NCBI GenBank assembly: GCA_023101485.1 | Contig: LVZB01000001.1 | Coordinates: 248,001-312,000, forward strand | Reading direction: 5' to 3' | Source of the DNA: Pasteurellaceae bacterium Macca | GTDB lineage: Bacteria; Pseudomonadota; Gammaproteobacteria; Enterobacterales; Pasteurellaceae | Length of the DNA: 64,000 nt | Part shown: positions 241-55,959 of the stretch, in pieces | Layout of the letters: each line of letters begins with the position of its first letter | Numbering within the stretch: position 1 is the stretch's first letter | The notes under the pieces: model-generated | Seen by the model: the letters and a program-made list of their open reading frames with translations, nothing else | Databases searched by the model: none | Told to the model about the DNA's origin: nothing | Translations under genes and position numbers: made by a program

Positions 241-341
241 GGGGAAGTCCCCGAAGGGGGATGGGGGGAAACAAATTGTCCAAAAAATTTGACCGCTTGT
301 TTTCGTTAGATAGCAAGCCCCCCTCAGTCGCTTCGCGACAG
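241..341. repeat. Direct repeat, unit 2 of 2 (101 bp)
   Basis: Second copy of the 124-224 unit. The differences fall near the TCGTTGGCTAG / TCGTTAGATAG junction and in the small palindrome. Its end overlaps the start of the dispersed repeat at 317-442. Confidence 0.85.
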
Positions 342-442
342 GTTACAAATAAGCTCTCGTTGTTCGCTTATTTGCCCTACGGGTCGTTGGCATAGCCAAC
401 GCTCAAAGCCTTTCAGGCTTTGTCCCCCGCAAGCAAGGGGAG
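317..442 (+). repeat. Dispersed intergenic repeat, copy A
   Basis: A ~126-bp element built from several short inverted repeats, for example AGCCTTTCAGGCT, CGTTGGCATAGCCAACG and an AATAAGC/GCTTATT pair. The same sequence occurs in reverse orientation at 6939-7063 with about four mismatches. The multi-hairpin structure and intergenic location fit a REP/BIME-like or non-autonomous mobile repeat; no transposase is attached. The rest of 1-458 outside the repeats holds no recognisable gene. Confidence 0.85.
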
Positions 443-6938: not shown

Positions 6939-7063
6939 TCCCCCTGCTTGCGAGGGACAAAGCCTGAAAGGCTTTGAGCGTTGGCTATGCCAACGACCCG
7001 TAGGGCAAATAAGCGAACAATGAGAGCTTATTTGTAACCTGTCGCAAAGCGACTGAGGGGGGC
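6939..7063 (-). repeat. Dispersed intergenic repeat, copy B (inverted)
   Basis: Nearly perfect reverse-complement copy of 317-442. It carries the same set of small palindromes (AGCCTGAAAGGCT, CGTTGGCTATGCCAACG). The stretch between thrL and sodA (6742-7232) contains this element, the partial repeat above and two uptake words, but no gene. Confidence 0.85.
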
Positions 7064-38350: not shown

Positions 38351-39331
38351 TTATTCCACCATAAAACAGGCAATTTTCGTGCCGTCAGGGTAGCTTTTTA
38401 ACGTTGGGCGTTCTTGGCTACAACGTTCTGTCGCTTTATGGCAACGTGCATGGAAAGCACAGCCCTTTGGTGGGTTAAGCGGGCTTGGAAGCTCGCCGGT
38501 CAGTTTAATTCGCTCACGGCGTTGCGTACTGTTTAAGCGTGGTGTTGCCGAAAGCAGTGCTTGGGTGTAAGGGTGCTGTGGATTATTGAAGATCTGCTTC
38601 GTTTCGCCTTGCTCCACACAACGCCCGAGATACATCACCATCACTTCATCGGCAATATGCTCCACAACGGAGAGATCGTGGGAGATAAAGACATAAGACA
38701 AGCCAAAATCTTGCTGTAAGTCCATCATCAAGTTCAATACTTGCGCACGCACGGAAACATCCAGTGCAGAAACCGGTTCGTCCGCTACCACGATATCAGG
38801 ATCAAGCATTAAGCCCCTTGCAATAGCGATCCGCTGGCGTTGCCCACCGGAAAACATATGGGGATAGCGGTCATAAAATTCAGGTTTTAGCCCGACTTTA
38901 CCCATCATTTCAAGGACTTTCGCTTTCCGCTGTGAAGCGGTGAGATCAGTATTGATGAGTAACGGCTCTTCTAAAATCGACCCGACTTTTTTACGCGGAT
39001 TTAACGAGGCATAAGGGTTTTGAAAGACGATCTGGATTTTCTTACGGCGTAATTTTTCCGTTTCGCTATCATTTACTAAGAAATTTTGCCCGTTGTAGAA
39101 TAGCTCCCCTTCTGTTGGGCGTTCGATCATCGTGAGCATTCGCCCAAGGGTCGATTTACCACACCCAGACTCCCCCACAATCGCCAAGGTTTTCCCTCGC
39201 TCAAGGGTGAAAGAAACGCCATCCACGGCTTTCACTTCCTTCGGTTTGCTAAACATTCCCTGCTTCACGGGATAATATTTTTTAAGATCAACCGCATTAA
39301 GAAGCGGTGCATTTTGTTGAGAATTTTGCAT
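38351..39331 (-). CDS. dppF: Dipeptide ABC transporter ATP-binding protein DppF
   Basis: Cytoplasmic ATPase subunit of a peptide importer. The 326-residue protein has Walker A GESGCGKS, the signature [14 protein letters not shown] and Walker B IVVADEP. The C-terminal oligopeptide/dipeptide extension has the Cys cluster CAFHARC, as in OppF/DppF, where four cysteines bind an Fe-S cluster. It is last in the dpp operon and follows dppD by 13 bases. Confidence 0.95.
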
Positions 39332-39344
39332 AGTTGCTCCTTAA

Positions 39345-40328
39345 TTACAGTGCGGTAGGCTCGCCTAAGGCATTCAGTGGGGTATGGCATTTGACCTGAC
39401 GCCCATCAAATTGATGCAATGCAGGCTCTTTTTCTCGGCAGAGATCCGTTGCATAAGGGCAACGTGGGTTTAATAGACAGCCTTTCGGGCGGTCATATTT
39501 CCCCGGCACAACACCCGGTAGCGATTGTAAACGAGATTTTCCTTCGGCAAATTCCGGCAAGGCTTTGAGCAATGCTTGGGTATAAGGGTGAAGTGGCGAC
39601 TGGAAGATCTGCTCCGCCCGCCCTTCTTCAACAACCTGACCGGCATACATCACGATAATGCGGTGTGCAGATTCGGCAATCAGGGCAAGATCGTGGGTAA
39701 TCAGAATCAACGCCATATTCTCTTTGCGTTGTAATTCCAGCAATAAATCAATAATTTGCGCTTGAATCGTTACGTCTAAGGCGGTAGTTGGCTCATCGGC
39801 AATCAGCAATTTAGGATTACACGCAATCGCCATCGCAATCATGACACGTTGGCTCATTCCCCCCGAAAGCTGATGGGGATAAACCTCTAAACGAGAAACA
39901 GGGTCAGGAATTCCTACCATTGTTAATAGTTCAATGGTACGCTCTTTCCGCCACGCTTTTGTTCCACCTTGGTGGATTTTCAGCGCTTCCATAATCTGAT
40001 AACCCACAGTATAACTTGGGTTAAGGCTTGTCATCGCATCTTGGAAAATCATTGACACATCTGCCCCAACGATTTTTTGCTTCTCTTTCGGGCTAAGGGA
40101 AAGTAAATCCGTACCGTTAAATTGCAAACGGTCTGCCATTACTCGCCCCGGGTAATCAATTAGCCCCATAATCGCAAGGGAGCTAACAGATTTACCTGAA
40201 CCCGACTCCCCGACAATGCCAAGCACTTCGCCTTCATTGACGGTATAGCTAATACGATCAACCGCTTTAAATGGCGATTTCTGATCGCCAAAATGGACGG
40301 AAAGTTCATTTACGTCTAATAATGCCAT
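39345..40328 (-). CDS. dppD: Dipeptide ABC transporter ATP-binding protein DppD
   Basis: Second ATPase subunit, 327 residues, with Walker A GESGSGKS, the signature [13 protein letters not shown] and Walker [15 protein letters not shown]. The C-terminal Cys-containing peptide-transporter extension reads [15 protein letters not shown]. It lies ten bases after dppC. Confidence 0.95.
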
Positions 40329-40338
40329 TCCTTCCTCC

Positions 40339-41229
40339 TTATTGTTTTAATTTTGGATCAAGGGCATCACGCAAACCGTCACCCATGAGGTTGAAGGCAA
40401 GCACAAGGGATAAAATCGTTAAACCCGGAATGGTCACCAACCAGTTTGCTGACTGCATAAAGCCACGGGATTCCGCCAACATGGTGCCAAGCTCTGGCGT
40501 TGGTGGCTGTGCGCCAATCCCTAAGAAACCCAGTGCGGCTAACTCTAAGATCGCATTCGAAATACCCATTGTCATTTGTACGATTAACGGGGCTAAGCAG
40601 TTCGGTAGAATCACGATAAACATTAAACGCAACACACCTGCACCCGCCACACGGGAAGCAGTCACATAATCACGATTTTTTTCACTTAATACTGAAGCCC
40701 TGGTTAAACGAACATAACTTGGAATCGACACCACGGCAATCGCAAAGGCCGCGTTAATTAAGGAAGGTCCAAGAATCGTTACCACACCAATAGTTAATAA
40801 CAAACTTGGAATAGCAAGCATAATATCCACAAATCGCATAATGATAATATCGGTTACGCCACCATAATAACCCGCCAATAAACCGAGAATTACCCCTAGC
40901 ACACAGGACATCACCACAATCAGTAAACCAATAGAAACGGATAATCTTGCCCCGTAAATAATACGAGATAAAATATCACGCCCAATATCATCTGTGCCGA
41001 AAAAATATGCCGACTGACCACCTTCAAACCAAGCAGGTGGAAGCAATAAGGCTGAGCGATTTTGTTCAATCGGATCAAAAGGGGCAACAAGCGGGGCAAA
41101 AATACAGATTAATCCCACAATCACAATAAAAGTTAAGCCAATAACGGCACCACGATTTTGGCGAAAATAGTGCCAAAATTCTTGCAAAGGGCTTGAAGGA
41201 ACTGGTGCAGTTTCTACAATATCTGACAT
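40339..41229 (-). CDS. dppC: Dipeptide ABC transporter permease DppC
   Basis: Inner-membrane permease of 296 residues with an N-terminal helix and a five- to six-helix BPD_transp_1 domain. It carries the EAA-type loop ([23 protein letters not shown]) that contacts the ATPases. Lies 18 bases after dppB. Confidence 0.95.
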
Positions 41230-41247: not shown

Positions 41248-42252
41248 TTAATGATGGCGAATACGCGGATTTACCACGCCATAAAGCAGATCGACTGCCA
41301 AATTGACTAAAATAATAATGGTGGCAATAATCAACACCGAGCCTTGTAACACAGGGTAATCACGCGAATTGATGGCATCAATAATCCATTTACCAATTCC
41401 CGGCCACGAGAAAATATTTTCTGTTAATACTGCACCCGAAAGGAGCTGTCCCACAATGAGCCCCACTACAGTCACCACCGGAATTAACGCATTACGCAAG
41501 GCGTGAATAATAACAATACGTGTGGTATTTAAGCCTTTTGCTTTGGCAGTACGAATATAATCTTCTCCTAACACTTCTAACATAGAAGAGCGGGTCATTC
41601 GAGTAATGATAGCCAATGGAATCGTGCCAAGCACCACTGCAGGTAAAATTAACGATTTAATGGCAGCTAAAAATGCCCCAGGTTCATCCGAGTTCCACGT
41701 GTCAATTAACATAAACCCAGTTTGGGTATCGATCCAATACTCCGCCGGTAATCGCCCAGAAGCGGGTAATCCTAGCGAGGTTGAAACATACAAAATAAGA
41801 ATTAAGCCCCACCAGAAAATCGGCATTGAATAACCCGCTAAGGAAAGTGAACTCACGGTATGAGAAATCCACGAGTCTTTTTTTACTGCGGCAATCACAC
41901 CTAAAATAACGCCTCCAATGAGCGACCACAATAATGCAAAAAAAGCAAGCTCAACGGTGGCAGGAAATAACGTAAAAAATTCCTTTAACACAGGTTCATT
42001 ATTACGGAAAGAGTTGCCTAAATCACCGTGAAAAATGCCTTTAATGTAATTGAAATACTGCTCAGGTAACGGCAAATCCAAACCAAGTTGGTGCATCATT
42101 TGAGCATGGACTTCAGGGCTTAATCCCCGTTCGCCCATTCGAATCTCAATCGGATCACCTGGGATTAAATGCACTAAGGCAAAGGTAATTAAAGTAATGG
42201 CTAAAAAGGTTGGAATAACCATTAAGATACGTTTAAGAATAAATTGAAACAT
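41248..42252 (-). CDS. dppB: Dipeptide ABC transporter permease DppB
   Basis: Inner-membrane permease of 334 residues, starting MFQFILKRILMVIPTFLAIT. It has six membrane segments and the EAA-type loop RTAKAKGLNTTRIVIIHALR. The gap of 145 bases between dppA and dppB holds an uptake word and a hairpin (42324-42343) likely to lower expression of the membrane parts relative to the binding protein. Confidence 0.95.
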   Translation of the reverse strand: MFQFILKRILMVIPTFLAITLITFALVHLIPGDPIEIRMGERGLSPEVHAQMMHQLGLDLPLPEQYFNYIKGIFHGDLGNSFRNNEPVLKEFFTLFPATVELAFFALLWSLIGGVILGVIAAVKKDSWISHTVSSLSLAGYSMPIFWWGLILILYVSTSLGLPASGRLPAEYWIDTQTGFMLIDTWNSDEPGAFLAAIKSLILPAVVLGTIPLAIITRMTRSSMLEVLGEDYIRTAKAKGLNTTRIVIIHALRNALIPVVTVVGLIVGQLLSGAVLTENIFSWPGIGKWIIDAINSRDYPVLQGSVLIIATIIILVNLAVDLLYGVVNPRIRHH

Positions 42253-42323: not shown

Positions 42324-42343
42324 TGGCACGAAACCTCGTGCCA
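42324..42343 (-). terminator. Intercistronic hairpin between dppA and dppB
   Basis: TGGCACGA-ggtt-TCGTGCCA, a perfect stem followed by CTATTTTT on the minus strand. Because the downstream permease genes have no obvious promoter of their own, partial termination or mRNA-end protection is more likely than full termination. Confidence 0.6.
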
Positions 42344-42397: not shown

Positions 42398-43996
42398 TTA
42401 TTTGCTCTCTAAGCTCACACCGTAGAAATCACGGAGTGAGAATGGGCTTAACACATAGCCTTTCACTTCCTTACGCACCGGGAAATAAGCTGTCGAGTGC
42501 GCAATGGTGATCCAAGGTGCTTGCTCTTTAAAAATGACCTGTGCTTGTTTATAAAGCTCGGTACGTTTTGCTTGATCGGGTTCTTGAGATGCTTTTACGA
42601 TAATTTCATCAAAAGGTTTATAGCAAAATTTTGCATAATTTGAACCTTGCTCCACAGAGGCACAGCTTAATAAAGTATTTAAGAAGTTATCAGGATCACC
42701 ATTATCACCATTCCAGCCCATCATGCCTGTTGGGGCTTCGCCAGCACGCATACGTTTGAGATATTCACCCCATTCGTAGCTGACAATCTTGGCATTTACG
42801 CCCACTTTTTTCCAATCTTCTTGGATAAGCTCTGCCATACGGCGGGCATTCGGGTTATAGGGGCGAGAAACCGGCATTGCCCAAATTTCTGTTTCAAAGC
42901 CGTTTTCAAATCCCGCTTCTTTTAATAAGGCTTTGGCTTTTTCAGGATCATAGGCGTAATCTTTTACCTCATCGTTATAGCTCCACATTGTTGGTGGAAT
43001 TGGGTTTTTCGCCACTTGACCAGAACCTTGATAGACCGCAGAAACAATGGCTTCTTTATTTACGGCATAATTTAAGGCTTGGCGTACTTTCACATTATCA
43101 AGAGGTGCTTTTTGTGTATTTAAGCCAATATAACCAATATTTAATCCTGCTCTACTAAGAAGATTAATGTCAGGATCATGTTTAAGTTTCTCAATATCGG
43201 CAGGATTTGGATAAGGTGCTGCATGACATTCACCTTTTTTCAATTTGGCATAGCGAACAGAGGCATCCGGCGTGATGGAAAAGACTAAACGATCAATTTG
43301 TGCTTTACCTTGCCAATACTGCTCAAAAGCCTTGAAGCGAATTTGTGAATCTTTTTGGTAATCGACAAATTGGAATGGACCTGTACCAATCGGGTTGCTA
43401 TCAATTTTCTCTGGTGTCCCTGCTTTTAACATTTTATCGGCATATTCAGCGGAATAAATGGAAGCAAAATCCATCGCAAGATTCGCTAAAAATGGCGCAT
43501 TTGGCACTTTTAAGCTGATTTTAACGGTGTAATCATCCACTTTTTCCACTTTATCAATAATGTTTTGCATATCCATCCCGATAAAATATTCATAATTGCC
43601 AGCGGATACTTTATGGTAAGGATGATTTGGGTCAAGCTGACGATTAAAAGAGAAAACCACATCATCAGCATTGAAATCACGGCTTGGTTTAAAATCTTTT
43701 GCTGTATGGAATTTCACACCTTTACGTAGGTGAAAAAGATATTCTTTACCATCAGCAGAAATTTCCCATTTTTCTGCCAAAGCAGGAATAACATTGGTTG
43801 TGCCTTTTTCAAAGGTAGTTAAACGATTAAAAATAGGACGAGAAGAAGCATCAAGAGTTGCACCATCTGTGCCTAGTGCAGGGCTAAAAAAAGAAGGGGA
43901 AGCCTCGGAACAGTACACAAAGGTTTTCGGGGCAGCCATTGCACTGCCAGAAGCAACAGCCAGTGCAATTAAAGAGAGTTGTGTTAATTTTTTCAT
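42398..43996 (-). CDS. dppA: Periplasmic dipeptide-binding protein DppA (copy 1)
   Basis: SBP_bac_5 solute-binding protein of 532 residues with a Sec signal peptide (cut near VASGSAMA-A, about residue 22). The mature start is VYCSEASPSF, as in E. coli DppA (VYCSEGSP). Conserved DppA segments include MPVSRPYNPNARRMAELIQ and MGWNGDNGDPDNFL. It probably delivers di/tripeptides, and possibly haem as known for Pasteurellaceae DppA/HbpA relatives. A paralogue lies directly upstream at 44102-45697. Confidence 0.93.
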   Translation of the reverse strand: MKKLTQLSLIALAVASGSAMAAPKTFVYCSEASPSFFSPALGTDGATLDASSRPIFNRLTTFEKGTTNVIPALAEKWEISADGKEYLFHLRKGVKFHTAKDFKPSRDFNADDVVFSFNRQLDPNHPYHKVSAGNYEYFIGMDMQNIIDKVEKVDDYTVKISLKVPNAPFLANLAMDFASIYSAEYADKMLKAGTPEKIDSNPIGTGPFQFVDYQKDSQIRFKAFEQYWQGKAQIDRLVFSITPDASVRYAKLKKGECHAAPYPNPADIEKLKHDPDINLLSRAGLNIGYIGLNTQKAPLDNVKVRQALNYAVNKEAIVSAVYQGSGQVAKNPIPPTMWSYNDEVKDYAYDPEKAKALLKEAGFENGFETEIWAMPVSRPYNPNARRMAELIQEDWKKVGVNAKIVSYEWGEYLKRMRAGEAPTGMMGWNGDNGDPDNFLNTLLSCASVEQGSNYAKFCYKPFDEIIVKASQEPDQAKRTELYKQAQVIFKEQAPWITIAHSTAYFPVRKEVKGYVLSPFSLRDFYGVSLESK

Positions 43997-44101
43997 TGTT
44001 CACTCCATTTTGTTGTGTTTATTAAAAGAAAGACTCGAATATACAAGTTTTTTGCCTAATTGCAAGGGGTTAATTTTCATTAATTTACACAGCAATCTTT
44101 T

Positions 44102-45697
44102 TTAAGGTAAAACGAATTCTACACTGTAAAAATTATGCGCTAAGAACGGGCTTGCCACATAGCCTTTTACATTTTTACGCAACGGGAAATACACCGTTGA
44201 GTGTGCAATCGGCAACCAAACCGCTTCTTCATTGGCGATCTGCTGAGCCTGCTGATAACGCTGAGCACGCTCTGCTTTATCGCTAATCTGCGCGGCACTG
44301 GTCACGAGTTTGTCAAACTCGGGGTGGCAAAATCCTGCATAGTTCGAGCCTTGTTGTACGGCATTACAGCTTAATAAAGTATTCAAGAAGTTGTCTGGGT
44401 CGCCGTTATCGCCTGTCCATCCCATCATGCCTGTGGCGTGTTCGCCTTCCCCCATACGTTTTAAGTATTCTCCCCATTCAAAACTGACAATTTTGGCATT
44501 CACCCCAATAGCTTTCCAATCCGCTTGGATCATCTCTGCCATACGGCGCGCATTCGGGTTATAAGGACGAGAAACTGGCATTGCCCACAGCTCTGTGTCA
44601 AAGCCTTTCTCTAGCCCTGCTTCTTTGAGTAAGGCTTTGGCTTTTTCAGGGTTATAGTCATAACCGCTGATCTCATTGTTGTATCCCCAAATTGTCGGAG
44701 GAAGTGGATTTTTCGCCTCAATACCAGCGCCTTGATAAACGGACTGCAAAATTGCCTTCTTATTCACCGCATAATTTAAAGCTTGGCGGACTTTTTTATT
44801 ATCCAACGGCGCTTTACGTTGATTAAGCGTGATATAACCGATATTCATTCCCGAGGTTTCGATCAGTTGTAAATTATTATCCGCTTTAATGGTAGGAATA
44901 TCCGCAGGGTTAGGGTAAGGCATCGCTTGGCACTCATTTTTTTGCAACTTCGCTAATCGTACCGATGCTTCTGGCGTGACACTAAAGATCAAGCGGTCTA
45001 ATTTTGCACGCCCTTGCCAGTACGCATCAAAAGCGACAAAGCGAACATTGGCATCTTTTTGGTAGGAATAAAACCGAAACGGTCCTGTACCAATAGGCGC
45101 AGTATCGACTTTTTCTGGTGTTCCTGCTTTTAACATTTTTTCGCCATACTCGGCAGATAATATCGCCGCAAAGTCCATCGCTAAATTCGCAAGGAATGGG
45201 GCATTCGGTACTTTTAATTGAATATTGACGGTGTAATCATCTTTCTTCTCCACTTTTTCAATGATATTTGCCATATCCATACCGAAGAAAAATTCATACT
45301 GCCCCCCCGACACTTTGTGATAAGGATTATTTGGATCAAGTTGGCGATTTAATGAAAAAAGCACATCATCGGCATTAAAATCACGACTCGGTGTAAATGC
45401 ACTGTTACTGTGGAATTTCACACCCCGACGTAAAGTAAAGGTATAACTTTTGCCATCTTCACTAATTACCCAACTTTCTGCCAAAGAAGGAATAATATTC
45501 GTTGTACCTCGTTCAAAATCCACCAAACGGTTATACACCGCTTGACCAACATCCAACGTCGCACCATCCGTACCAATTTGCGGGTTAAGATAAGCTGGGG
45601 AAGACTCAATACAATAGGTAAACGTTTTCAGCTCATTAGCATTTGCCATACCAAAACAAGCGGTCATAATTAATGAGAATTTTGCAAATGATTTCAT
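44102..45697 (-). CDS. Periplasmic peptide-binding protein, DppA paralogue (copy 2)
   Basis: A 531-residue SBP_bac_5 protein closely similar to its downstream neighbour, sharing long blocks such as DFNADDV, NAPFLANLAMDFA and WGEYLKRM. The signal peptide (about 1-20, ANA-NE cut) contains an uptake word (45656-45665) encoding T-A-C; this cysteine might instead be lipid-modified, but the preceding Met makes a poor lipobox. It is the first gene after the histidine leader/attenuator. Likely ligands are peptides (His-containing by inference), or haem/glutathione as for HbpA/GbpA-type relatives. Confidence 0.88.
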   Translation of the reverse strand: MKSFAKFSLIMTACFGMANANELKTFTYCIESSPAYLNPQIGTDGATLDVGQAVYNRLVDFERGTTNIIPSLAESWVISEDGKSYTFTLRRGVKFHSNSAFTPSRDFNADDVLFSLNRQLDPNNPYHKVSGGQYEFFFGMDMANIIEKVEKKDDYTVNIQLKVPNAPFLANLAMDFAAILSAEYGEKMLKAGTPEKVDTAPIGTGPFRFYSYQKDANVRFVAFDAYWQGRAKLDRLIFSVTPEASVRLAKLQKNECQAMPYPNPADIPTIKADNNLQLIETSGMNIGYITLNQRKAPLDNKKVRQALNYAVNKKAILQSVYQGAGIEAKNPLPPTIWGYNNEISGYDYNPEKAKALLKEAGLEKGFDTELWAMPVSRPYNPNARRMAEMIQADWKAIGVNAKIVSFEWGEYLKRMGEGEHATGMMGWTGDNGDPDNFLNTLLSCNAVQQGSNYAGFCHPEFDKLVTSAAQISDKAERAQRYQQAQQIANEEAVWLPIAHSTVYFPLRKNVKGYVASPFLAHNFYSVEFVLP

Positions 45698-45730
45698 TGT
45701 GTCTCCTTGATTTAAAAGTGAAATAGAGAA

Positions 45731-45765
45731 AAAAGAAAACCCCTTGGAATTGCTCCCAAGGGGTT
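45731..45765 (-). terminator. his-type attenuator terminator ahead of the dpp operon
   Basis: AACCCCTTGG-gagcaatt-CCAAGGGGTT on the minus strand, then TTTCTTTT. Its 5' arm region CTTGGGAG (45753-45760) can instead pair fully, with wobbles, with CTTCCGAG (45820-45827). CTTCCGAG is itself part of an upstream CGGAAG/CTTCCG hairpin. Alternative pairing of this kind is the switch of his attenuators. Confidence 0.9.
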
Positions 45766-45859
45766 GTTGTACTTTTCGTTTGTTTATCGCTTAATGCTTA
45801 ACTTACGCTACATTGACCGCTCGGAAGTTTTCTTCCGAACACACCAAATGCCCGAAAGA

Positions 45860-45907
45860 TTATTCAGGAAAATGGTGATGATGATGTAACGCAATAATAA
45901 AATTCAT
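45860..45907 (-). CDS. Histidine leader peptide (hisL-like)
   Basis: A 15-residue peptide, MNFIIALHHHHHFPE, with five consecutive histidine codons, preceded by GGAG six bases before the ATG. E. coli HisL (MTRVQFKHHHHHHHPD) has the same plan: a short lead-in, a His run and a Pro-acid end. CACCA in the His codons can pair with TGGTG at about 45842-45847, the first stem of the attenuator. It lies ahead of peptide-transport genes, not of hisG. Confidence 0.92.
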   Translation of the reverse strand: MNFIIALHHHHHFPE

Positions 45908-45933
45908 ATAAGCTCCAAAAAATGATGGGTCGA

Positions 45934-45962
45934 AATATATCTCAGCAAAAATAAAAATGCAA
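45934..45962 (-). promoter_or_regulatory. Promoter of the His leader / dpp operon
   Basis: TTGCAT (45957-45962), 17-base spacer, TATATT (45934-45939), about 27 bases ahead of the leader ATG and just after the ccmF stop region. Confidence 0.75.
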
Positions 45963-53991: not shown

Positions 53992-55446
53992 ATGTCTGAA
54001 ATTCAAACCCTACAACCTCAACTACTGTGGCAATGGTTCGATAAAATTTGTGCCATTCCTCACCCTTCTTACCACGAAGAAGCCCTCGCCACCTTTATTA
54101 TTGATTGGGCAAAAGATCGGGGCTTTTTTGTTGAACGTGATGATGCTGGCAATATTTTAATTCGCAAACCCGCAACCCAAGGTATGGAAAATCGCCCCAC
54201 TATTGCACTCCAAGCTCACCTCGATATGGTTCCCCAAGCCAATGAAGGCACGGTACATGATTTCCAACGTGACCCAATCCAACCTTACATTGACGGCGAA
54301 TGGGTAAAAGCCCGTGGCACAACCCTTGGGGCAGATAACGGCATCGGCTTAGCCTCTTGTTTAGCGGTGTTAGACAGTGACGATCTCATTCATCCTGAAA
54401 TCGAAGCCCTACTCACAATGACAGAAGAAGCCGGTATGGAAGGCGCACTGGGCTTAAAAGCCAACTGGCTGAAAGCGGAATTGATGATCAACACCGACAC
54501 CGAAGAAAATGGCGAAATTTATATCGGCTGTGCCGGGGGGGAAGATGCCAATATCGAAGTGCCACTCCACCGAGAAGCCACCACTTTTGACGCTGCCTTT
54601 ACTCTTCGACTAAAAGGGCTACACGGCGGTCATTCCGGCTGTGATATTCACACCACCCGTGCCAATGCAATTAAACTCTTTGCGCGCTTATTAGCGGAAT
54701 TAAACACAAAGATCCCTTTCCGCTTAGCCCACATTCAAGGGGGGTCAGTCCGCAATGCCATTCCACGGGAAGCCGCGGCGACGCTTTGCATCGATGCAAA
54801 AAATCAAGAAAATTTGACCGCTTGTCTTCGCAAATTTGAGCAAGCCTTAAAAGCGGAACTCGCTCTTGCGGAGCCAAATCTCCACTTCATTCTCGACACC
54901 ACAACCCTTCCCCCACAACAATTTAGCCAAAGCACCCACGATACGGTGATTCGCTTCCTCAACGTGCTACCAAATGGCGTCATTCGCCACAGTGATGTGG
55001 TGGAAAATGTGGTCGAAACGTCCCTGAGTATCGGTATTCTCGAAAGCCAAGAGAGCCATTTAAGAGCGAATATCTTAGTCCGCTCATTGATTGAAAATGG
55101 CAAAGCCGATGTGCGTAGCCGATTAACTTCCCTCGCTGAACTCGTGGGTGCAAAAGTGGCCTTCTCCGGCAGTTACCCCGGCTGGCAACCAGACCCGAAC
55201 TCCGCCATCACACCACTGACGAAACAGATTTACGATGAAATCTTAGGTTACGCCTCGGAGATTAAAGTGATCCATGCAGGGCTTGAATGTGGCTTAATTA
55301 AACAGGTTTATCCTCATATTGATGTGGTTTCCATTGGGCCAACCATTCTCAACGCCCACTCGCCGGATGAAAAAGTCCATATTCCTGCGGTGACAACCTA
55401 TTGGCAACTCCTCACGCGTATTTTAGCCAGCATCCCAGCGAAATAA
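53992..55446 (+). CDS. pepD: Aminoacyl-histidine dipeptidase (peptidase D)
   Basis: Zinc M20-family dipeptidase able to split Xaa-His dipeptides such as carnosine, releasing histidine. The ATG at 53992 follows AAAGGAGTGC; an upstream in-frame start adds 40 non-homologous residues. The 484-residue enzyme has metal-binding [19 protein letters not shown] and [12 protein letters not shown] motifs. An uptake word at 54816-54825 encodes T-A-C in NLTACLRKF, apparently inserted in or adapted to the coding sequence. It is functionally linked, by inference, to the His-controlled peptide transporter at 38-46 kb. Confidence 0.96.
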
Positions 55447-55496: not shown

Positions 55497-55626
55497 CATT
55501 AAAGTACAATTTTTTGTAATAAAACAGCGTTATCCATAGACTAACCCTTCGATTGCCAATAATGGCAACCATCTCGGCTTAAATGCCATTTCATATTCAA
55601 ATTTGATTCAAATAGAGGAACTCGTT

Positions 55627-55959
55627 ATGAAAAAAGTACTTTTTACTGCATTATTATCTAGCTTCGCCCTTGTTGCTTGCACTAACGCCATGGAAAAATC
55701 TGGTGAGATGATGAAAGACTCTCACAATATGATGAAAGAATGCGACAAAGCAATGAAAGATTGTCATGATATGATGAAGAAATCAGACAACATGATGAAA
55801 GATTCTCACGATATGATGAAGAAATCAGACAACATGATGAAAGATTCTCACGATATGATGAAGAAATCAGACAACATGATGAAAGATTCTCACGATATGA
55901 TGAAGAAATCAGACAACATGATGAAAGATGCTCATAACATGATGAAAAAAGCGGGTTAA
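55627..55959 (+). CDS. Met/Lys/Asp/His-rich repeat lipoprotein
   Basis: A 110-residue secreted lipoprotein starting MKKVLFTALL; lipobox ALVAC places the modified cysteine at 18. Almost the whole mature part is a 7-residue periodic sequence alternating MMKDSHD and MMKKSDN-type heptads, with two Met at a fixed heptad position. It is probably a long amphipathic helix or coiled coil, and Met/His content could bind copper or other soft metals. It resembles in style the short MxKDx-repeat proteins. The coding sequence has 42-bp tandem repeats (55759-55926). Function is unknown. The start at 55627 is chosen because the signal peptide begins there; an earlier start adds eight residues. Confidence 0.8.
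   Translation: MKKVLFTALLSSFALVACTNAMEKSGEMMKDSHNMMKECDKAMKDCHDMMKKSDNMMKDSHDMMKKSDNMMKDSHDMMKKSDNMMKDSHDMMKKSDNMMKDAHNMMKKAG
55759..55926 (+). repeat. 42-bp in-frame tandem repeat in the lipoprotein gene
   Basis: Three perfect 42-bp units begin at 55801, 55843 and 55885. A fourth, partly diverged unit begins at 55759, and the run 55768-55926 is identical at the repeat period. A diverged unit continues after 55927. Each unit encodes 14 residues, so copy-number change keeps the frame. Confidence 0.95.

Follow-up and report, generated by a model that had tools for sequence, protein, structure and literature searches.

It is likely that a histidine-type attenuator stands before dppA1, a gene for an extra DppA-like binding protein of a peptide ABC importer, in Pasteurellaceae bacterium Macca, and that this gene is transcribed mainly when charged His-tRNA is short. 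The observed base of this explanation is formed by the anatomy of the leader sequence, its conservation, covariation in its terminator, gene order and a tree of the binding proteins. If it is true, a textbook histidine attenuator has been extended from the synthesis of an amino acid to its scavenging as peptides, with control exerted on one binding protein more than on the whole transporter. The window referred to throughout is the entire 64,000-nt stretch analysed. The elements of the leader, in the direction of transcription, are as follows.

45934..45962, minus strand: sigma-70-like leader promoter, TTGCAT-17-TATATT, directly after ccmF (-35 TTGCAT at 45962-45957, 17-nt spacer, -10 TATATT at 45939-45934; from the sequence and a promoter scan)
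45913..45916, minus strand: GGAG ribosome-binding site for the leader peptide (from the sequence; the relatives' peptides also have an SD)
45860..45907, minus strand: leader peptide ORF, MNFIIALHHHHHFPE plus stop (from the sequence)
45842..45877, minus strand: helix 1, CACCA (45873-45877) with TGGTG (45842-45846), overlapping the His codons (from the sequence and the model alignment)
45818..45841, minus strand: hairpin 2 (pause-type), TGTTCGGAAG-AAAA-CTTCCGAGCG, retained by all 15 related leaders
45753..45827, minus strand: antiterminator pairing of CTTCCGAG (45820-45827) with CTTGGGAG (45753-45760), 8 bp, two of them G-U
45738..45765, minus strand: intrinsic terminator, AACCCCTTGGGA-GCAA-TTCCAAGGGGTT, with a T-rich tail at 45729-45737

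Every element named in the original prediction, from the promoter and GGAG site through the His-run peptide and hairpins to the terminator, was thus located on the minus strand. Its description of the whole as a his attenuator architecture is borne out by a covariance match to the Rfam His_leader family (RF00514) at window positions 45732-45884 (minus strand), which scores 62 bits against a cut-off of 49 and covers model positions 1-126, the whole model (E = 2.2e-7 when the whole window is searched against every family, 1.5e-9 in a local search). The leader ORF carries five consecutive His codons (45886-45872, minus strand), and hairpin 2, with a CGGAAG/CTTCCG core, reaches 10 bp with its flanks. 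The 8-bp antiterminator overlaps the 12-bp terminator, so that the two are mutually exclusive. Folding of the leader, proposed together with the Rfam search as a check, gave -19.9 kcal/mol for the terminator hairpin (z -5.1), a value equalled or bettered in none of 200 shuffles. The 40 nt from the terminator to the dppA1 start codon contain the dppA1 ribosome-binding site, and the promoter scan listed no promoter-like site on the dppA1 strand in this interval. Taken alone, the hexamers of the leader promoter are not above chance (18 promoter-like sites in the region versus 18.1 expected); their support comes from relatives, where all 15 leaders have a similar pair at roughly that distance, as judged by a loose pattern with no shuffle control. 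A chance or mis-drawn structure is ruled out by the covariance score together with the compensatory changes described below, and a leader for a hidden his gene is likewise ruled out, the downstream ORFs being dpp genes. The usual hisG setting of RF00514, which is not part of the model, is not found here: dppA1 comes next.

Downstream of the leader, the two dppA paralogues and dppBCDF that had been expected next on this strand follow in that order from 45697 down to 38351.

44102..45697, minus strand: dppA1, second DppA-like binding protein, 531 aa (family and structure matches, tree)
44038..44065, minus strand: promoter-like site of dppA2, TTGCAA-16-TATATT (scan and recurrence in relatives)
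42398..43996, minus strand: dppA2, DppA-like binding protein, 532 aa (family and structure matches)
41248..42252, minus strand: dppB permease (best family match, below the curated cut-off)
40339..41229, minus strand: dppC permease (best family match, just below the curated cut-off)
39345..40328, minus strand: dppD ATPase (family cut-off passed)
38351..39331, minus strand: dppF ATPase (matches DppF best, with 629.6 of 660 bits; passes the cut-off of the dipeptide ATPase subfamily)

NCBIfam NF043070 (DppA, equivalog cut-off 1005 bits) is the best family for both binding proteins, with 780.1 bits for DppA1 and 879.9 for DppA2; as neither passes the cut-off, both are named DppA-like. Each passes the SBP_bac_5 (PF00496) gathering score of 32.4, with 371.8 and 386 bits respectively. 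Dipeptide-binding proteins are the best solved-structure matches of both, and it is by sequence match to these structures that DppA1 is assigned its fold class. Between dppA2 and dppB lies a terminator-like hairpin (42324-42343, minus strand), which may keep the binding protein above the permease.

The claim that the attenuator controls a peptide ABC transporter operon is best supported for dppA1 and is too wide for the operon as a whole, since dppA2BCDF has a promoter-like site of its own. This pattern, which was written after the sequences had been seen, occurs upstream of dppA2 in 16 of 25 loci versus 438 of 5000 simple shuffles; by locus type, it is present in 11 of 13 leader-dpp or leader-yuiF-dpp loci and in five of 12 others. 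Given this recurrence, the importer itself, dppA2BCDF, is likely to be produced independently of the leader. Furthermore, three genomes (G090, G093 and G095) carry dppA1 behind the leader with no dppBCDF within the fetched 12 kb, although in G093 dppA1 is broken into two frames, the one such case among nine dppA1 genes. The separate promoter-like site and these three genomes together make dppA1 the sure target, and it is the extra binding protein DppA1 that the attenuator is most surely predicted to govern. The scan lists no terminator-like site in the dppA1-dppA2 interval, so transcription may also read through into dppA2BCDF. That the attenuator rules the entire dppA1-A2-BCDF unit in this way, with histidine shortage raising the whole importer as first proposed, we consider rather unlikely. 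The two dppA genes do lie on the same strand only 105 nt apart, and leader, dppA1, dppA2 and dppBCDF are contiguous also in G055 and G032, as well as in G085, where the first dppA is more distant. However, the dppA2 promoter-like site recurs with or without an upstream leader, other genes separate dppA1 from dppA2 in G049 and G050, and dppBCDF is not beside dppA1 in the three genomes above.

The distribution of such leaders was surveyed by searching RF00514 in 140 Pasteurellaceae genomes, with a repeat search under laxer filters in the 38 that had unlisted, weak or no matches. In total, 183 sites in 130 genomes were classified, two of them below the cut-off; one contig-end site (G086) and weak repeat-search matches from E 3e-4 upward were left out. 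The next gene is hisG at 103 sites, a yuiF-like gene at 57, a hisC-type gene at 10 (in some cases as much as about 1 kb away from the leader), hisD at one and dppA at nine; two sites have no next gene and one meets a contig end. The two leaders before no recognisable gene (L290, G095 C1:1048855; L291, G001 C1:1514451) are likely relicts after gene loss. A His leader additional to the one before hisG was also observed in front of a separate hisC-type gene (L287, L288, L289, L292, L293; G051-G054; G092), and these cases are read as split his operons with an attenuator each.

The nine genomes with a leader before dppA (G000, the genome of the window itself, G032, G049, G050, G055, G085, G090, G093 and G095) span six genera by database labels, and their leader peptides hold three to five His codons in a row. 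As the G093 leader equals that of G090, eight dppA leaders were aligned, together with seven leaders from loci of the order leader-yuiF-dppA (n = 15). Hairpin 2 (8-12 bp), the antiterminator (7-10 bp), the terminator (11-14 bp) and a His-rich peptide are present in all 15. In the alignment, in which two yuiF rows are shifted by one, 96.0% of cells are paired for the terminator plus hairpin 2 and 94.2% for the antiterminator. Two-sided changes number 13 cells for the terminator plus hairpin 2 versus 4.7 in shuffles, with none of 500 shuffles as high, and five cells for the antiterminator versus 2.3, with 12 of 500 as high. By count of covarying pairs, neither structure exceeds its shuffles (4 versus 2.8, 121 of 500, for the terminator plus hairpin 2; 1 versus 1.0 for the antiterminator). 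Conservation in relatives, on which the original prediction depended, is therefore found, with the His run, hairpins and promoter-like site kept in nine of 140 genomes. dppA genes do not generally carry the leader: no His_leader match at E up to 0.05 was obtained for 16 other dppA loci of Pasteurellaceae, one of which (L263) has almost no upstream sequence. Among 11 further named Pasteurellaceae dppA loci, 10 have no match at the RF00514 cut-off, the sole match being Glaesserella australis, and 11 dppA loci outside the Pasteurellaceae gave no His_leader match. As to whether the dpp leader descends from a hisG leader or a yuiF leader, pairwise scores favoured neither.

Gene order links the dpp leader to yuiF. 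In seven genomes (G103, G104, G047, G048, G135, G136 and G137) the leader is followed by yuiF and then dppA, with dppBCDF next in six, G104 ending at a contig end, and with an adk-like gene upstream in four. The order in Glaesserella australis (G055) is adk, leader, dppA1, dppA2, dppBCDF, such that dppA1 fills the slot after adk held by yuiF in those four. The yuiF-like co-target proteins match Pfam PF03553 and PF13726 and have no NCBIfam match; the name YuiF for this permease, a predicted histidine carrier, is our assumption, supported by the 57 sites at which such a gene follows a His leader. The 61 DppA-like proteins placed in a maximum-likelihood tree include 16 DppA1, which form a single clade (100/99). 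This clade splits into seven leader-bearing rows (97/96) and nine leaderless ones, which come from A. minor and Actinobacillus sensu stricto. Genome searches found no RF00514 match near dppA1 in eight of the nine sister-group genomes; in the ninth, A. minor, the contig begins at dppA1 and the upstream region is cut. The comparison with the Apl branch suggested at the outset is accordingly mixed: dppA1 is present in Actinobacillus sensu stricto and in the A. minor group, and no leader was found there. The nine leaderless sister-clade proteins indicate that DppA1 is able to serve without a leader. Two leaderless dppA1 loci sit downstream of an rRNA operon, which would fit loss of the leader by relocation in those two. 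The dppA of G085 is a long branch outside the DppA1 clade and may represent a second, independent case of dppA behind a His leader.

A further explanation would make the leader a leftover, once belonging to yuiF, behind which dppA1 moved in with no benefit from histidine control. The slot after adk, occupied in four genomes by leader-yuiF and in G. australis by leader-dppA1, is what this explanation would lead one to expect, as are the two leaders elsewhere that precede no gene and the retention of dppA1 with no detected leader in Actinobacillus in the strict sense. Nevertheless, none of the eight distinct dppA leaders, which come from six genera, has lost the peptide, the exclusive hairpins or the promoter-like site, the terminator shows two-sided changes, and the predicted auxotrophs G055 and G085 keep the leader before dppA, all of which make a mere leftover very improbable in our estimation.

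Attenuation of an import gene may be set beside the capacity of these genomes for histidine synthesis. The genome of the window has two His_leaders, one before dppA1 and one before hisG, the latter gene being followed by hisD, C, B, H, A and F; the plus-strand ORFs of 120 aa or more, read over 10 kb of the his locus, did not include a recognised hisIE. Judged by this operon, the genome is probably capable of histidine synthesis, in which case the dppA1 leader is an addition and import is not the only route. The operon also contains two extra ORFs (L286:5330-5944 and L286:7073-7528), the second IS200-transposase-like by eye. A yuiF-like gene of the same genome (L269/L270; G000 C13:40901-42282) follows a ttcA-like sequence and has no His_leader match; its frame is interrupted at a G run, which may be a sequencing error. 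Across the survey, hisD is present in 103 of 140 genomes; of the 37 without it, which include G055 and G085, 20 are listed as such and 17 follow by elimination within that table. Where these genomes have a classified leader, as 27 do, it always precedes a yuiF-like gene or dppA, the latter in two of them, and never a his gene; no leader was classified in the other 10, some of which have weak matches and one of which is G086, whose site lies at a contig end. In G085 the sole His_leader is on dppA, with a yuiF-like gene elsewhere in the genome. The sensor thus outlives the pathway, hisD-less genomes such as that of G. australis having classified His leaders on import genes only, which is to be expected if those genes import histidine in some form.

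Control by a histidine attenuator also offers a lead on the ligand of DppA1. Four positions that we take to be the backbone contacts of DppA to its dipeptide (R355, Y357, W405 and D408 in E. coli numbering) are kept in 16 of 16 distinct DppA1 proteins. Six positions distinguish DppA1 from DppA2 at the thresholds used, one DppA1 row being counted twice. No histidine-shaped pocket was seen in DppA1, whose residues at the four contact positions are those of DppA2; the kept contacts support peptide binding by DppA1 without showing a histidine preference. A different ligand linked with histidine (for example haem, histidine in complex with a metal, or free histidine) would be in keeping with the wider family, whose nickel- and haem-binding members DppA1 also matches, at lower scores, and with the missed NCBIfam DppA cut-off (780 of 1005 bits). 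Against this, the dipeptide-binding proteins among solved structures are the best matches and the contact positions are kept in all 16 proteins, and such a ligand in place of dipeptides seems improbable. As for the release of histidine, PepD is encoded in the same window at 53992-55446 (plus strand), outside the dpp operon, and passes the NCBIfam beta-Ala-His dipeptidase cut-off (602.7 versus 343.75); this match makes the suggestion that PepD frees histidine a reasonable one.

With dppA1 as the regulated gene, the leader is presumed to act as follows. When histidine is sufficient, the ribosome would translate through all five His codons; hairpin 2 would then fold, and RNA polymerase would be halted at the terminator, 40 nt ahead of dppA1. 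When histidine is short, the ribosome would stall at the His codons, leaving the 3' arm of hairpin 2 free for the 5' arm of the terminator, and with the antiterminator paired transcription would continue into dppA1. Since a separate promoter-like site precedes dppA2BCDF, the effect is likely to be a changed composition of a standing importer, in which extra DppA1 would bring in more, or different, histidine-containing peptides to be cut by peptidases such as PepD. A bolder extension, which we advance only tentatively, is that the attenuator serves as a specificity switch for an ABC importer. When histidine is short, a Dpp permease that is present at all times would gain a dedicated binder of histidine dipeptides (e.g. 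carnosine derived from animal tissue), PepD would free the histidine, and host-adapted species without histidine synthesis would keep the switch on import alone.

The leader shares with the his operon attenuator of gamma-proteobacteria (RF00514) a His-rich leader peptide, mutually exclusive hairpins and an intrinsic terminator; there, however, the target is a histidine biosynthesis gene, whereas here it is a gene for a peptide-binding protein. His attenuators before the YuiF histidine permease are said to have been predicted by Vitreschak in 2004. These also act on an import gene, and 57 such sites were found here, seven of them directly before dppA, but YuiF would carry histidine itself, while the present target is part of a peptide ABC importer. 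The E. coli importer DppABCDF has the same gene content and provides the best family matches, yet it differs from this locus, where two binding proteins are encoded and a His attenuator precedes the first of them. We know of no His leader before E. coli dppA; the E. coli control genome does match RF00514, a match tallied without positions. LAO/HisJ and MppA/OppA are extra binding proteins that share one permease, and by this likeness the second binding protein may retune a shared permease; to our knowledge, neither system is subject to ribosome-mediated attenuation by the amino acid concerned.

Within the published literature, PMC9413887, in its main text, deals mainly with Firmicutes, names YuiF as a histidine permease and describes His-specific T-box or attenuator control of histidine transporters, also in auxotrophs. 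The systems covered there likewise place a histidine-sensing RNA on import genes, but they belong to other RNA classes or lineages and their transporters carry free histidine; the terms dipeptide, oligopeptide and dpp are absent from that main text. Passages of PMC4809551 and PMC4986893 report a His leader of A. pleuropneumoniae before hisG only. The main text of PMC3766115 gives 49 His leaders and a histidine transporter class and does not contain 'dpp', and PMC2965389 mentions, for some Enterobacteria, another kind of candidate attenuator upstream of dppB. Searches of the main text of papers turned up no report of dpp genes behind a His attenuator, and an earlier mention is possible.

The window holds several further features. 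AaHKsRNA22 (RF02902), an Aggregatibacter sRNA family, occurs in two copies, at 332-432 (minus strand) and 6948-7048 (plus strand). An nqrA-II motif (RF04310; 13847-13994, minus strand) and an Arrc14 sRNA (RF02860; 34637-34797, plus strand) both score over their cut-offs. An ORF at 55603-55959 (plus strand) encodes a small, low-complexity, Met/Lys/Asp-rich protein with KKSDNMMKDSHDMM repeats.
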